Positions 23,754 through 46,068 of a DNA stretch of 64,000 bases are shown one piece after another. The DNA lies in NCBI RefSeq assembly GCF_009707385.1, contig NZ_CP046115.1:2294001-2358000 (forward strand), given 5' to 3'. The notes beneath the pieces are model-generated. The model saw only the letters and a list, made by a program, of their open reading frames with translations. It was not told the origin of the DNA and did no database searches. The stretch comes from Klebsiella oxytoca (GTDB taxonomy: Bacteria; Pseudomonadota; Gammaproteobacteria; Enterobacterales; Enterobacteriaceae). Numbering within the stretch: the stretch's first letter is position 1; the number at the start of each line of letters is the position of its first letter. Both the position numbers and the translations under genes were made by a program.

Positions 23754-23785
23754 GAAAAGCCCGGCATTGCTGCCGGGTTTTTTTT
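23754..23785. terminator. Shared chb/katE terminator
   Basis: CCCGGCA/TGCCGGG with a four-base loop is followed on the plus strand by eight T. On the minus strand an A-rich lead turns into TTTTCTGA, so it can also serve katE, which converges here. Confidence 0.88.
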
Positions 23786-26042
23786 ACGCCGGAATCGCCG
23801 CGATTTTGGCGCTCCTTGACCACACCCGATGCGCTGCCATCAGGGTAATCAGTTCATCCATTGATTTGCTATTTACCGCATCCGTCTCGACAATGCCTTC
23901 TTCACCTTTGCTGGCAACCTGAAGCTGGGTTTTACACTGGCGGGCATCGCCTGCCAGCAGAATCGGCTTCAGATGTTTGTAGGCTTCCAGCAGGTAATAA
24001 TGGAAATCACCGTTGTTGCTCTGGCTTTGCAGGTCGCCACCGGGAATGATGACCGCATCTACGGTTAATGATGGCGAACCGGCAAAGGTTCCGGCAATCG
24101 GCAGGGCCGTACCATCGTCGGCCTTCACCTCACCCATACGGGAGTAAAGCAGTTTGGCATGAACGCCGTGTGCCTTAAGCGCCTTCAGCAACGCCAGCAG
24201 CTCTTTCGCCACTGGACGATCGTTGAGCAGTACCGCGACCACCCGGCCTTTAACATCACCGCTGGGCAGGGCATACAGGCTCAGCGTAGGATCCTTTTTC
24301 AGGCCGTTGACGTCCGGCGGCGGCGTGATGTTGCGCTGCTCTTTGGTAAGCTCAATGCCAAGATTCTTACCCACGGCCTGAGCAAGCTGCAGATCGATAT
24401 GCGCCAGCTGATCCACGACTCGTTCACGGATCCACTCCCTGACGACTTTACTCAGTTCGAAACTAAAACCGTCGATAATATGCTGCTGCTCAATAGGCGT
24501 CTGGCTGCGCCAGAACAGCAGGGGGTGAGAGTAATACTCGCCAAATGAGGGGCTGCGCTGGCGAATTTTTTCACCATCCACCCGTTCGGCATAAGACTCA
24601 AAGCCGCCGCCTTTGGCTGCCGGCGGCGTTTCCCGCGGCCAGTTATTATTAATGGAGTTCGGCTCATAGTTGGCCGGATTGGTATCAATATCCATCCGGT
24701 GCATGCCGTCTCGCTGGAAATTATGATATGGACAGGTGGGTTTATTGATTGGGATCTCATGGAAATTAGGCCCGCCGAGGCGGCTAATCTGCGTATCGGT
24801 GTAGGAGAATAACCGGCCCTGCAGCAGCGGGTCGTTGCTGAAATCTATCCCCGGGACGATATGGCCGGGATGAAATGCCGCCTGTTCGTTTTCGGCGAAG
24901 AAATTGTCCGGGTTGCGATTGAGGACCATTTTACCGACCCGCTGAACCGGAACCAGCGCTTCCGGGATAAGCTTGGTGGGATCCAGTATATCGAAATCAA
25001 AGGCGAACTCATCTTCCTCCGGTATCAGCTGTAATCCCAGCTCGTACTCAGGATAATCTCCGGCTTCAATAGCTTCCCATAAATCACGACGATGGAAATC
25101 GGGATCGCGGCCGGTCAGCTTTTGTGACTCGTCCCAAACCAGAGACGCCTTGCCAGCGACCGGCTTCCAGTGGAAACGTACGAAGGTGGCTTTACCTTCG
25201 GCGTTGATCAGGCGAAAGGTGTGGATGCCGAAACCTTCCATCGTACGATAGCTGCGGGGCAGGCCGCGGTCGGACATTGCCCACATGACGTTATGCAGCG
25301 TTTCCGGCTGTAGGGAAATATAGTCCCAGAAAGTGTCGTGCGCGCTTTGCCCCTGCGGAACTGCCCAGTGCGGTTCAGGTTTCACCGCGTGGACGAAATC
25401 AGGGAATTTGATCGCATCCTGAATAAAAAAGATTGGCGTGTTGTTGCCGACGAGGTCAAAAATTCCCTCATCGGTGTAAAACTTGGTGGCAAAGCCGCGG
25501 ATATCGCGCACCGTATCGGCGGAGCCAGCGCCGCCCTGAACCGTTGAGAAACGGACAAATACCGGCGTTTTTTTCTTCGGGTCGGTGAGAAAATCCGCTT
25601 TGGTGATGTCGCTTAAATCGCTATATGCCTGGAAATATCCATGCGCGGCGGAGCCACGGGCATGAACGATCCTCTCCGGAATGCGCTCATGGTCAAAGTG
25701 CGTTATTTTCTCGCGCAGGATAAAATCTTCCAGCAGCGTTGGCCCGCGTTTACCCGCTCGCAGCGAGTTCTGATCGTCAGAAATGCGAACGCCCTGATTG
25801 GTTGTGAGCGCAGAATCCTCCCCGCCTTTGCGGTATTTCGCAAGAGCATCAAGCTTTTCGCTATCCGTATCCGGGGCTTTCATGCTGCCCGGCGAGGTAG
25901 GTTCTTCACCTGGGGCGGTTGGCTGAGGTGTCGGTTTCCAGTTCTGATCTGCGGGGGCCAGATCACCCAGACCTGGTTTTGCTTGTCGCTCGTCGTGTAC
26001 CGGTGACTGATGGGTGAGTGGTTTATGGTGTTTATCTGACAT
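23784..26042 (-). CDS. katE: Catalase HPII
   Basis: Large-subunit monofunctional haem catalase, known as RpoS-controlled in E. coli. The 752 residues comprise a low-complexity N-terminal arm, the catalase core with the distal histidine in [14 protein letters not shown], the asparagine in VGNNTPIFF, the proximal tyrosine in [15 protein letters not shown], and a C-terminal flavodoxin/DJ-1-like domain ([14 protein letters not shown]). The ATG at 26042 follows AGGAGC. It is divergent from cedA. Confidence 0.97.
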
Positions 26043-33764: not shown

Positions 33765-33783
33765 AATGATAACGATTATCATT
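33765..33783 (-). promoter_or_regulatory. Fur box of the siderophore receptor
   Basis: AATGATAACGATTATCATT is a nearly perfect 19-bp palindrome matching the Fur consensus (GATAATGATAATCATTATC). It lies directly upstream of the receptor gene, so iron-repressed expression is strongly predicted. Confidence 0.92.
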
Positions 33784-37087: not shown

Positions 37088-37711
37088 CTAAGAAATAAGC
37101 TGCTTCCTTTTCATTAATACATTTAAAAATTTATTAAGATCTTGTGTGCCTTTTATTTTAAAGTCGTGCATAACGTTTTTCTTATGCGAATAAACCGTTT
37201 TATAGTTAATTTTTAATTCATGGGCTATTTCCATTTGATTGAGTCCAAGGCTAAGGGCATGAACAACTTTTGACTGGGCATGCGTAATCGATTTGCAGGG
37301 ACAGTTAATACAACTGATCGTTTCTGCAGCTATGGCCTCTTCATTCTCTGTCGCTCTGAACTCATTAATGTGAGCGTTAATTTTATTTCTTATTGCCGGG
37401 ATGGAGTCGGCTTTGTATATAAAAAAGCAATTTTTTGTGCAGTTGGTTAGCTCCGTCGGTAAATATTCATTTTTCTTCTCCTGGAGAATAAATAACAGAC
37501 TTTTATTGGTTCTGTATTTTAACTCGTCGTTACACAAGAATATTTCCCCAGGCTCCATTTCAGTAAAGATAATATGGGCCTGAGCAATGTTGTATTGAGT
37601 GTAGCTGTCCTGAAAGCTAATATCTTCATCTGTGGCAACAGACTCCAGAACCAGCTGTTTTATAGCATGTTTAGAGTAGACGTTTTTAGTATTAATTAAA
37701 ATATTTATCAT
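37088..37711 (-). CDS. LuxR-type helix-turn-helix regulator
   Basis: A 207-residue transcription factor with a C-terminal LuxR/FixJ DNA-binding domain: SKVVHALSLGLNQMEIAHEL then NYKTVYSHKKNVMHDFKIKG. The N-terminal 120 residues have a response-regulator-like pattern, but I see no clear phospho-acceptor acidic pocket. A cysteine cluster CINCPC lies just before the HTH. The ATG at 37711 lacks a strong ribosome site; a GTG two codons upstream is possible. Base composition is far more AT-rich than its neighbours. It resembles enterobacterial fimbrial or surface regulators in layout, but I do not recognise an orthologue. Confidence 0.75.
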   Translation of the reverse strand: MINILINTKNVYSKHAIKQLVLESVATDEDISFQDSYTQYNIAQAHIIFTEMEPGEIFLCNDELKYRTNKSLLFILQEKKNEYLPTELTNCTKNCFFIYKADSIPAIRNKINAHINEFRATENEEAIAAETISCINCPCKSITHAQSKVVHALSLGLNQMEIAHELKINYKTVYSHKKNVMHDFKIKGTQDLNKFLNVLMKRKQLIS

Positions 37712-38057
37712 ATGCACGGATTCACACGGTTATAAATGAAAGTACTCTGATTTCAAATAACGCCAGGGCGCAGAGAGACTCATGCTTAAAGTAAATGGTT
37801 AATAGTGACAGATGGTTTAAAGGCTTTAAATAAGATATTGTAGGTCTTCAAAAAAAGCAACATTTGTGTGCAAAATAAGACCCTGGACATTTTTTGTGAG
37901 AAAATTCTTAATTTTCATAAACCTATTTGTAATTCTTTGGGTTTTTTATTATGGAAATTTTATTTATTTTTATTCTGCACAAAAAGCTTAGTGTAAAAAT
38001 CGGTTTGCTGATAAAATATTGGCGGCTAATGGTTTGCTAAGGATATTATCTCAGGAA
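37712..38057. other. AT-rich divergent promoter region between two regulators
   Basis: About 350 bp of strongly AT-rich DNA between the divergent LuxR-type and MarA/Rob-type genes, with many T and A tracts of the kind bound by H-NS. Individual promoters could not be assigned with confidence. Confidence 0.5.
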
Positions 38058-38912
38058 ATGAGGAACTCTGCCTTTAATGAAATAGTAGAATGGATTGAGG
38101 ACCATCTGGCAATTAATCCGTCGGTTGCTGATATCGCCAGTGGAGTAGGGTGTTCTCGACGCACTGTTTATAATGTATTTTATGAATATGCTGGTATTCC
38201 CGTCGGAAAATATATCCGAATGCGCAGAATGACCTATGCCGCTGGCAGGTTAAAACTGACCCGACAATCCATTTCATCCATCGCCTGTCAGTTGCATTTC
38301 GACTCACCTCAAACATTTTCCCGAGAGTTTAAAAAGAATTTTGGTCGTTGTCACGGAGAGTACCGGCATTCAACATATTGGGATTTGTCTTTATTACATC
38401 AGAAAGTTACCTCCCATGACTGCCGGTTTCCTGAACCTTATCTTTGTTTACTTGAAGAGCAGATATTCGCCGGATATGGATTCAACTACACGCTGTCGCT
38501 GAGCGATGATATTGCTTCAAGAAAAAATATCACCCGCAGGAAAATTACCACCAGCATGTTCGGTGACGATCGTGACATTTTTATTCTCTCTGACTTTTTT
38601 CCTGCGGCCAGCAATGCATATAAAACGATGATCAATGGATTTATTGGCACGCCTTTGAATTTGCGAAATGACGCTTGCCGGGAGATAAGGATAGCGAAAC
38701 GCGGATGGTATCTTGGTCTGGACTTTAGCGGCTCATGGGAAGAATTTACGTTACTGTCAAATCATGTTTATATGAAATATCTTCCTGAGTTAGGGCTATA
38801 TCGTCGGCAGGGCTACGATATCGAACGTTTTGCTCCCCTGAAAAGGGCTGGTATTGCAAACACGCGTTCGATTTATACCATTCAGTATTTTGTACCGGTA
38901 GCTTACATTTAA
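38058..38912 (+). CDS. AraC-family regulator of the MarA/SoxS/Rob type with C-terminal effector domain
   Basis: A transcription activator with its DNA-binding domain at the N-terminus, as in Rob: EIVEWIEDHLAINPSVADIA, then the second helix-turn-helix QSISSIACQLHFDSPQTFSR with the FKKNFG tail near residue 95. The remaining 180 residues resemble a GyrI/Rob-type ligand-binding domain only in position. The start is uncertain. ATG at 38058 gives 284 residues and aligns with the MarA N-terminus; TTG at 38019 gives 297. AT-rich composition and lack of an E. coli counterpart at this place suggest acquisition. Confidence 0.78.
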   Translation: MRNSAFNEIVEWIEDHLAINPSVADIASGVGCSRRTVYNVFYEYAGIPVGKYIRMRRMTYAAGRLKLTRQSISSIACQLHFDSPQTFSREFKKNFGRCHGEYRHSTYWDLSLLHQKVTSHDCRFPEPYLCLLEEQIFAGYGFNYTLSLSDDIASRKNITRRKITTSMFGDDRDIFILSDFFPAASNAYKTMINGFIGTPLNLRNDACREIRIAKRGWYLGLDFSGSWEEFTLLSNHVYMKYLPELGLYRRQGYDIERFAPLKRAGIANTRSIYTIQYFVPVAYI

Positions 38913-39028
38913 CCCACCAGTAGCGATGTTTCCCGCCGTTGTTTACCCGTGCGCGCAGTCGTAAGCTCAGCTCCTTGCCACAAGCGCGAGGCTGTCCATG
39001 ACCGGTTAAGCGCGCCAGGCGCGGCGCC

Positions 39029-39053
39029 AAAAAAAGCCCGCACAGGTGCGGGC
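39029..39053 (-). terminator. Terminator of the RyhB-type RNA
   Basis: On the minus strand GCCCGCAC/GTGCGGGC with a two-base loop is followed by TTTTTTT. It is directional, because the other strand has no T run. Confidence 0.92.
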
Positions 39054-39122
39054 CAAAATACTGGAAGCAATGTGAGCAATGTCGTACCGAATACCTGACT
39101 CGTTTGCTCAACTATTCGGTAT
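39029..39122 (-). ncRNA. RyhB-type iron-regulated small RNA
   Basis: About 94 nt. The centre carries the RyhB core, ACGACATTGCTCACATTGCT followed by TCCAGTATT, identical over 29 bases to the pairing region of E. coli RyhB as I recall it. Upstream is a 9-bp stem (TACCGAATA/TATTCGGTA) with a 19-base loop, and downstream a terminator hairpin GCCCGCAC/GTGCGGGC followed by seven T. These flanks differ from E. coli RyhB, whose gene sits beside yhhX-yhhY. RyhB pairs with mRNAs of iron-using proteins together with Hfq and triggers their decay. This copy is therefore a RyhB paralogue or a relocated RyhB. Confidence 0.9.
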
Positions 39123-39127
39123 TGAGA

Positions 39128-39156
39128 AAGATAATATTTCTCATTTAAAATATCAA
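39128..39156 (-). promoter_or_regulatory. Promoter and Fur box of the RyhB-type RNA
   Basis: On the minus strand a -35 TTGATA (39156-39151) and a -10 TATCTT (39133-39128) are separated by exactly 17 bp. Between and over the -10 lies TGAGAAATATTATCT (39143-39129), matching the Fur 7-1-7 pattern at 11 of 14 arm positions. Start of transcription is expected near 39122-39120. Iron repression by Fur is predicted. Confidence 0.82.
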
Positions 39157-39347
39157 CCCTATCTTTTGTGCAGAAGTGATTTTTTATCGACGATGGAAAC
39201 GGTACGTTTCTGGCTGTCGTTCTGCACCCAGGGCTCGCCAATCGCGAATGCGCTCAGGGACGTAGCTGATGAATGAAGTACTGCCTGACTGGAGGTAAGC
39301 AGGTGTAGTGGCGTTGTTTCGCCTGACGCGTAAATATGCTGAGAAAT

Positions 39348-39373
39348 AGCCGCCCGGCGGAGAACCGGGCGGG
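39348..39373 (-). terminator. trp operon terminator
   Basis: CCGCCCGG/CCGGGCGG with a seven-base loop lies just after the trpA stop. On the minus strand it is followed by CTATTTCTC, a weak T tract. Confidence 0.75.
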
Positions 39374-39381
39374 AGAAGCGC

Positions 39382-40191
39382 TTAAGCGGCTCTGGTGGCG
39401 GCTTTAAGCCCCTGGGCAAAGGCTTTCAGTTCATCCAGCATCGCCTGCGGATCGTTAACGTTGCGCTCGATAATTTTAACGATAGCGGAGCCAGAAATCG
39501 CGCCTGCTGCGCCTGCGTCAATCGCGGCGGTAACCTGCTCTGGCGCGGAGATACCAAAGCCCTGCAGCGGCGGCGCGGCATGGTACTCGGCCAGCTTCTC
39601 GATCAGATGATGCAGCGGCAGGGCGGCACGATTTTCTGCCCCGGTGACGCCTGCGCGTGAGAGCAGATAGGTGTAGCCGCGACCGTGAGAGGCAATCTGG
39701 CGCAGCAGATCGTCATCGGCATTTGGCGGGCAGATGAAAATCGGCGCGATGTTGTGGCGCAGCGCGGCCTGGCGGAACGGGGCGGACTCTTCGACGGGAA
39801 CATCGGCTACCAGCACGGAATCAACGCCAGCGCGCTCGCAGGCGGCGTAGAATTCATCAATACCGGGGCTGAACACCAGATTAGCGTACATCAGCAGGCC
39901 GATTGGGATAGTCGGGTGCTTTTGACGAATCGCCGCCAGCATTTCAAAGCACTGGGTGGGCGTGACGCCTGCGGCGAAAGCGCGCAGAGTTGCGTTCTGA
40001 ATCGTCGGACCGTCCGCCAGCGGGTCGGAGAAAGGAATGCCCAGCTCCAGCGCGTCAGCGCCCGCTTCAATCAGCGTATCGATAATTTTCAACGATTGCC
40101 CCGGATTAGGGTCGCCGAGGGTTACGAAGGGAACAAATGCGCCTTCCTGGCGGGCTTTCAGTTGTGCAAACAGCGTCTCGTAACGTTCCAT
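39382..40191 (-). CDS. trpA: Tryptophan synthase alpha chain
   Basis: TIM-barrel subunit that cleaves indole-3-glycerol phosphate to indole and glyceraldehyde-3-phosphate, and channels indole to TrpB. The 269 residues have the catalytic Glu49 in [15 protein letters not shown] (with Asp60) and the phosphate-binding [10 protein letters not shown] and [10 protein letters not shown]. The ATG overlaps the trpB stop (TGATG), which couples translation of the two subunits. Last gene of the operon. Confidence 0.98.
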
Positions 40192-45913: not shown

Positions 45914-45950
45914 TATTGTTCTCGCCTGTTCGGTATAATAATTTGTCCAA

Positions 45951-45974
45951 TAAAAAGCCCGCTCATTGGCGGGC
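45951..45974 (-). terminator. trp attenuator terminator
   Basis: On the minus strand GCCCGC/GCGGGC with a six-base loop is followed by TTTTTATT, about 40 bp before trpE and 32 bp after the leader peptide stop. This is the attenuator 3:4 hairpin. Confidence 0.92.
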
Positions 45975-46005
45975 CGGGTATCTGTATGCTGAGTGCAAAA
46001 CGCGA

Positions 46006-46068
46006 TCACGCCGCCCGATAACAGGAGGTGCGCCACCAGCCGTGCAGAGTGATAAATTGCGTTTTCAT
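46006..46068 (-). CDS. trpL: trp operon leader peptide
   Basis: A 20-residue leader peptide, MKTQFITLHGWWRTSCYRAA, with tandem Trp codons at positions 11 and 12. Ribosome stalling at the two Trp codons under tryptophan shortage favours the antiterminator over the terminator at 45951-45974. The core HGWWRTS matches enterobacterial TrpL; the tail is longer than the 14 residues of E. coli. Confidence 0.93.
   Translation of the reverse strand: MKTQFITLHGWWRTSCYRAA

Follow-up and report, generated by a model that had tools for sequence, protein, structure and literature searches.

The interval between trpA and an AraC-type regulator gene on the chromosome of Klebsiella oxytoca raises the question of what kind of RyhB it encodes: a displaced copy of the canonical ryhB gene, or a member of a separate lineage within this family of small RNAs. 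The initial annotation had placed a RyhB-type small RNA there on the minus strand, and this placement is borne out within the window (the entire stretch of 64,000 nucleotides that was analyzed), where the Rfam model RF00057 (gathering score 55 bits) matches positions 39028-39091 (-) over its full length with 71.7 bits (E 1.9e-11). R1, a model of the whole RNA, matches positions 39028-39122 with 108.3 bits, a score to be read in the light of the fact that the window copy is one of the training sequences of R1. Judged by its sequence, we regard the locus as ryhB-2, a member of the same lineage as the Salmonella RyhB-2 RNA (RfrB/IsrE) that presumably operates through Fur, iron, and Hfq, and we assign to this reading a probability of roughly 0.87.

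The ryhB-2 RNA (39028..39122, -) is predicted to be about 94-95 nt long, with a start 6-7 nt past the -10 hexamer. The transcript first proposed (39122-39029, about 90 nt) was approximately right in its place; its extent now runs from an inferred start at 39122/39121 to 39028. The upstream neighbor trpA (39382..40191, -) lies on the same strand and possesses its own terminator (39372-39350), and the AraC-type regulator gene (38019..38912, +) is convergent with ryhB-2 and does not overlap it. An antisense action on a neighbor was considered and rejected, given that the convergent AraC-type gene stops short of the ryhB-2 terminator and that trpA is encoded on the same strand. Farther out, a LuxR-type (GerE) regulator gene (37088-37717, -), whose counterpart in K. 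oxytoca L032 is 74% identical, is present between the AraC-type gene and ompW, and an ordinary tryptophan operon leader (RF00513, 83 bits) is found at 45949-46044 (-).

A dehydrogenase gene lies directly upstream of ryhB-2 in eight of the nine other Klebsiella loci for which frames were listed, K. oxytoca L032 being the exception; the window ryhB-2 is devoid of this upstream gene found in other Klebsiella. The stretch at 39150-39385 (-) contains a possible C-terminal remnant of the dehydrogenase (tblastn against the 240-nt interval, E 3.8e-4, with eight identical residues in a row), and a deletion has likely brought trpA close to ryhB-2 in the window. At another locus (L040, 4704-7746, genome G012), a large TonB-receptor-like gene and a PiuC-like gene, both named from their sequence alone, are situated downstream of ryhB-2.

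A scan of positions 38900-39400 yielded two promoter-like sites, one per strand (0.3 expected), and two terminators (0.5 expected), the second of which is that behind trpA. The promoter of ryhB-2 is formed by the -35 hexamer TTGATA (39151..39156, -) and the -10 hexamer TATCTT (39128..39133, -), and has the 17-bp spacing that had been claimed for it (TTGATA-17-TATCTT at 39156-39128, -). In an alignment of 10 sequences, the TTG of the -35 hexamer is kept and the rest is variable; since TATCTT is invariant in this alignment and the overlapping TATTAT variable, the start of transcription was placed at ~39122/39121. The Fur-like 7-1-7 element that had been noted over this promoter (TGAGAAA-T-ATTATCT, 39129..39143, -) overlaps the -10 hexamer and carries three mismatches to TGATAATNATTATCA. 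Taken alone it is a weak site, because the window contains eight Fur-like sites of such quality, compared with 2.2 expected. The best such site in the window is the Fur-box-like TGATAACGATTATCA at 33767-33781 (+), with one mismatch. The element over the ryhB-2 promoter is strengthened by its conservation: 88 of the 89 promoters of the lineage termed type 2 below carry a Fur-like site with at most three mismatches (versus 1.6% when these segments are dinucleotide-shuffled), and 81 of the 89 carry it at the identical offset, although these 89 loci are related and the 88 sites do not represent independent events. A putative Fur-type operator is present over the ryhB-2 promoter; for Salmonella ryhB2, Fur repression together with an effect of sigma-S is described in the accessible part of the relevant report (PMC8970401).

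The pairing core (39057..39085, -), described beforehand as a 29-base match, is indeed exact: its 29 nt are identical both to E. coli RyhB and to the RyhB-1 of this genome at the yhhY locus, the longest exact match to either of them, for which chance is negligible. Preceding it is a conserved 5' hairpin (39085..39121, -) with an outer stem of nine pairs, the last of them formed with the first base of the core, and following it is the intrinsic terminator (39028..39054, -) foreseen at the outset, with a stem at 39054-39035 (-) and then a T run, whose U tail is the predicted Hfq site. The core is predicted to be mostly single-stranded (unpaired, 0.76 in RyhB-2 versus 0.55 in RyhB-1). The calculated fold of the window copy, comprising the 5' hairpin and the terminator (-30.7 kcal/mol, z -3.06), is only moderately better than those of shuffled sequences, 2 of 200 of which are as good; the corresponding fold of K. 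oxytoca L032 has a z of -5.86. Among 21 distinct sequences, the 5' helix is paired in 94.0% of the cells (29-39% for slid controls), shows changes on both sides at four of its 15 pairs, and has a covariation score above those of all 500 of 500 shuffles; the RNAalifold covariation term is small (-0.4), which was counted against it.

This RNA is the second RyhB of the organism. RF00057 has two matches in the genome, the window copy and G000:C1:5035210-5035275 (86.1 bits), and the latter, located between homologues of yhhY and yhhX, is the canonical ryhB (RyhB-1), just as the placement of the window copy at a locus other than yhhX-yhhY had implied. Exactly two matches were likewise found in every one of the 20 genomes examined from the genus (G000-G019); trpA is in view of the second copy in 14 of these, only the ompW side in two, and only the MarR or dehydrogenase gene in four. 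A second RyhB in Klebsiella is not in itself new, since a ryhB-2 of K. pneumoniae MGH78578, with a mapped start and expression, was named in 2012 according to the text available from that study (PMC3415461). Like the window copy, it is a second RyhB besides that at yhhX-yhhY, and, as all 20 of these genomes have two copies, we infer that it corresponds to the one beside trpA. The ryhB under study in a functional investigation of Klebsiella sits next to yhhY, as stated in the part of the report at hand (PMC3423075), and a RIL-seq study of Klebsiella (PMC10907235) makes no mention of ryhB in its main text.

The relationships of ryhB-2 were traced with two models. R1, built from 21 sequences that include two members of the yeaQ site, was applied to 392 Enterobacteriaceae genomes, and produced 76 matches of at least 83 bits in 72 genomes from 27 of the 154 sampled genera, with two such matches each in G046, G161, G331, and G451. 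R2 was derived from the 80 nt upstream of the core in 18 Klebsiella sequences, and hence represents the promoter and the 5' hairpin with the core excluded. Of 79 sources from other genera, it matches 76 with E <= 0.0066, among them the Salmonella locus L164 (52.5 bits, E 4.8e-6). The three sources that it misses (L167-L169) make up genus g109, which was excluded from the lineage in view of its R1 scores of 79-80 bits, its different 5' hairpin, and the absent R2 match. The 67 controls comprised the E. coli regions around trpA and yeaQ together with RyhBs lacking the 5' motif, many of which have yhhY in view; two of the 67, L044 (0.15) and L179 (0.63), reached E <= 1 and were kept among the controls, and none fell below 0.15. 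These controls were sorted beforehand by the absence of the 5' motif, so that their separation from type 2 is partly a matter of construction; for the yhhY-linked loci and for that of Salmonella, the assignment has a positional basis as well. The E-values are rough. In E. coli K-12, R2 had no match in the region of either trpA or yeaQ. When 501 bp were queried, 5373 of 5426 E. coli genomes gave a match, none of them over 80% of the query; the 20 E. coli matches listed cover 11-12% of it, and one of these, H3, is the yhhY locus. The 83-bit cut left out L170, L171, L172, L174, L176, and L177 in spite of their R2 matches; L171 lies at yeaQ, and L170 and L172 each have a second R2 match within a few kb.

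In a tree of 119 rows, flagged for its few columns and long branches and with little resolution inside type 2, 32 type-1 sequences are separated from 87 type-2 sequences with a support of 99/97 and in 100% of the bootstraps. The window copy could be conceived as a recent duplicate, with drifted flanks, of the ryhB at the yhhY locus of Klebsiella, tied to Salmonella RyhB-2 by the family core only; the identity of its 29-nt core to that of the local RyhB-1 would fit such an origin, but its promoter and 5' hairpin match type 2 in other genera rather than the copies at yhhY, and the tree groups it with type 2 and the local RyhB-1 with type 1, which makes this origin highly improbable. Just as improbable is a decaying, unexpressed copy, for although the inner stem of its 5' hairpin is weaker than in relatives, the core, promoter, Fur-like site, outer stem, and terminator are all intact, and 20 of 20 genomes of the genus have two copies. 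The 5' stem-loop had initially been taken as new and the flanks as merely diverged; this description has to be abandoned in favor of an old unit of promoter and 5' hairpin that is conserved in its own right, the hairpin being a conserved domain that marks a RyhB lineage apart from RyhB-1.

The connection to Salmonella is made through L164, an R1 match at G323:C1 1352864-1352963 (-). The ryhB-2/isrE gene of S. Typhimurium has been assigned to 1352987-1352875 in the order STM1273 -> <- yeaQ -> (PMC2515195, as far as its available text goes), and the consulted portion of another report prints a 33-nt core for Salmonella and predicts a large stem-loop in RyhB-2 (PMC7944605). L164 displays both the order STM1273/ryhB-2/yeaQ and this 33-nt core, and fits the S. 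Typhimurium gene as described in these excerpts by position, gene order, and core. Because L164 corresponds to Salmonella ryhB-2 and in turn matches type 2, the Klebsiella copy and Salmonella RyhB-2 go back to a common ancestor separate from RyhB-1. A parallel with the duplicated RyhB of Salmonella had been suggested at the outset; according to the R2 model and the tree, the relationship is closer than that, the two belonging to one lineage. Salmonella RyhB-2 (L164) has a promoter with a Fur-like site, the type of 5' hairpin, and the core in common with the window copy, and at 98 nt, the length quoted in the accessible text of PMC8970401, it is about equal in size to the window RNA. The Salmonella gene lies between STM1273 and yeaQ whereas the window copy adjoins trpA, and we consider the STM1273-yeaQ placement a trait of Salmonella and do not treat it as defining the lineage. 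E. coli RyhB and the local RyhB-1 have the 29-nt core, a Fur-type promoter, and a terminator in common with ryhB-2, but differ from it in their locus, promoter sequence, and 5' domain. Yersinia RyhB1 and RyhB2, likened here by description, also occur as two copies per genome, one of them at the E. coli position (PMC4211561, in the section available).

RfrB has been portrayed in that section as encoded on an S. enterica-specific island (PMC4211561), and RyhB-2 is counted among the Salmonella-specific small RNAs in the part seen of a further review (PMC4228915). The sampled genomes do not fit this view, the lineage being present in 27 of 154 genera. Its chromosomal addresses were compiled for 90 type-2 places, namely the 76 R1 matches and those of 14 further Klebsiella genomes (L032 was omitted as a duplicate of L080), with flanks of ~0.7-5 kb in view, so that some unassigned places may be mis-sorted. 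trpA or trpB is in view at 31 places, only ompW or yciC at five, only the MarR or dehydrogenase gene at eight, yeaQ (the Salmonella site) at 17, a gene for a SpoIIE-phosphatase/CBS protein (Pfam) at 12, and an oppA-like gene, labeled from its sequence, at three; 14 places have none of these neighbors, and include L059, whose neighbors were left out for want of a core with up to four substitutions even though R2 matches it. An STM1273-like gene is in view at 10 of the 17 places with yeaQ, adjoining ryhB-2 directly at five of them (L073, L102, L160, L163, L164) and farther off at the others, and it is also found next to ryhB-2 at four of the 31 trpA places, all in genus g90. This distribution fits a joint move of ryhB-2 and the STM1273-like gene at least once, a chance association of the two, or an ancestor with several copies of which some were later lost, being competing explanations.

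As the lineage lies near trpA-ompW, yeaQ, the SpoIIE-phosphatase gene, and elsewhere, ryhB-2 together with its promoter seems to have changed its address, either by moves or by duplication and loss. At somewhat less than even odds, we propose that RyhB-2 is an old paralogue of the Enterobacteriaceae and not a Salmonella island RNA, that its promoter, RNA, and terminator constitute a travelling unit of ~150 bp that has moved among trpA-ompW, yeaQ-yoaG, the SpoIIE-phosphatase operon, and the oppA-like gene, at times with the STM1273-like neighbor or in two copies, and that its 5' hairpin provides regulation or targets absent from RyhB-1. There may instead have been no moving unit at all, but an ancestor with several type-2 copies at several addresses, of which the genera kept different ones. 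Four genomes (G046, G161, G331, and G451) that each have a pair of type-2 copies at separate addresses (the pairs being L131/L132, L136/L137, L156/L157, and L058/L059) and the poor resolution of the RNA tree within type 2 speak for such an ancestor; however, none of the examined genomes has copies at both trpA and yeaQ, and the STM1273-like gene beside ryhB-2 at both addresses favors a joint move, so that we look upon this alternative as conceivable but rather doubtful.

With respect to the function of ryhB-2, we infer its transcription in this strain, its control by iron, its binding of Hfq, and its targets along the following lines. When iron is ample, Fur-Fe(II) would cover the -10 region and block the ryhB-2 promoter; when iron is short, RNA polymerase would produce the ~94-nt RNA, in which the 5' hairpin would leave the core unpaired. 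Once Hfq has bound the U tail, this core would base-pair with mRNAs that encode iron-using proteins (sodB, probably katE) at their ribosome sites; these mRNAs would be shut off and iron thereby spared. Because it is shared with RyhB-1, the core of RyhB-2 should act on sodB, and probably on katE, as RyhB-1 does.

Targets were surveyed among 320 predicted gene starts in 464 kb of this genome (the window plus 20 further stretches, each of 20 kb). With internal folding allowed, sodB reaches a ddG of -13.2 with RyhB-2 and -10.8 with RyhB-1; the core pairs and the 5' hairpin stays closed. As 14 of the 320 starts attain -13.2 with RyhB-2 (sodB and 13 of the 319 others), the designation of sodB as a target derives mainly from prior knowledge of RyhB. 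The best partner of RyhB-2 among the 320 starts is that of a katE-type catalase gene in the window (23784-26042, -; Pfam PF00199); in this gene, the ribosome site together with the start, GGAGCGAGCAATGTC, is predicted to pair with the RyhB core with a ddG of -18.8. A comparison across Klebsiella gave a row for 13 katE starts (L215 and L222-L224 gave none), whose ddG values range from -13.1 to -18.8 with the window RyhB-2 and from -10.0 to -16.5 with the RyhB-1 of the window genome; given these similar values, the site appears common to both RNAs, and katE is likely a target of both RyhBs.

A 5' hairpin that furnishes RyhB-2 with private targets, and with a main role unlike that of RyhB-1, could be argued from the sequence of this hairpin, which is conserved more than pairing requires, and from the RyhB-2-only targets reported for Salmonella in the section of PMC4211561 at hand. 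We deem such a role unlikely, however, since the hairpin strand taken by itself does not set sodB apart from other genes (27 of 320 starts are as good) and both sodB and katE pair through the shared core. If folding is ignored, the hairpin strand plus the core can form a long, near-contiguous duplex with the sodB start that only three of the 320 starts equal, sodB itself included, compared with 96 of 320 for the RyhB-1 counterpart. This extended duplex was discarded as evidence for private targets: the hairpin strand by itself is ordinary, its match is absent from the Salmonella hairpins L073 and L164, and the hairpin remains closed once internal folding is allowed.

What is new here is the identity of the Klebsiella ryhB-2 gene as the counterpart of Salmonella RyhB-2. 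No link between the two was found in the titles and abstract openings that were searched, with subscription journals mostly outside the search. Two literatures are thereby joined, as Salmonella RyhB-2, which has been investigated for its part in infection, seems to be a widely distributed paralogue, carried by Klebsiella as well. In this genus, the effects of deleting the yhhY-locus ryhB may be masked by the second copy, and the occurrence of one shared lineage at different chromosomal addresses lets one test across genera what the sibling RNA adds.
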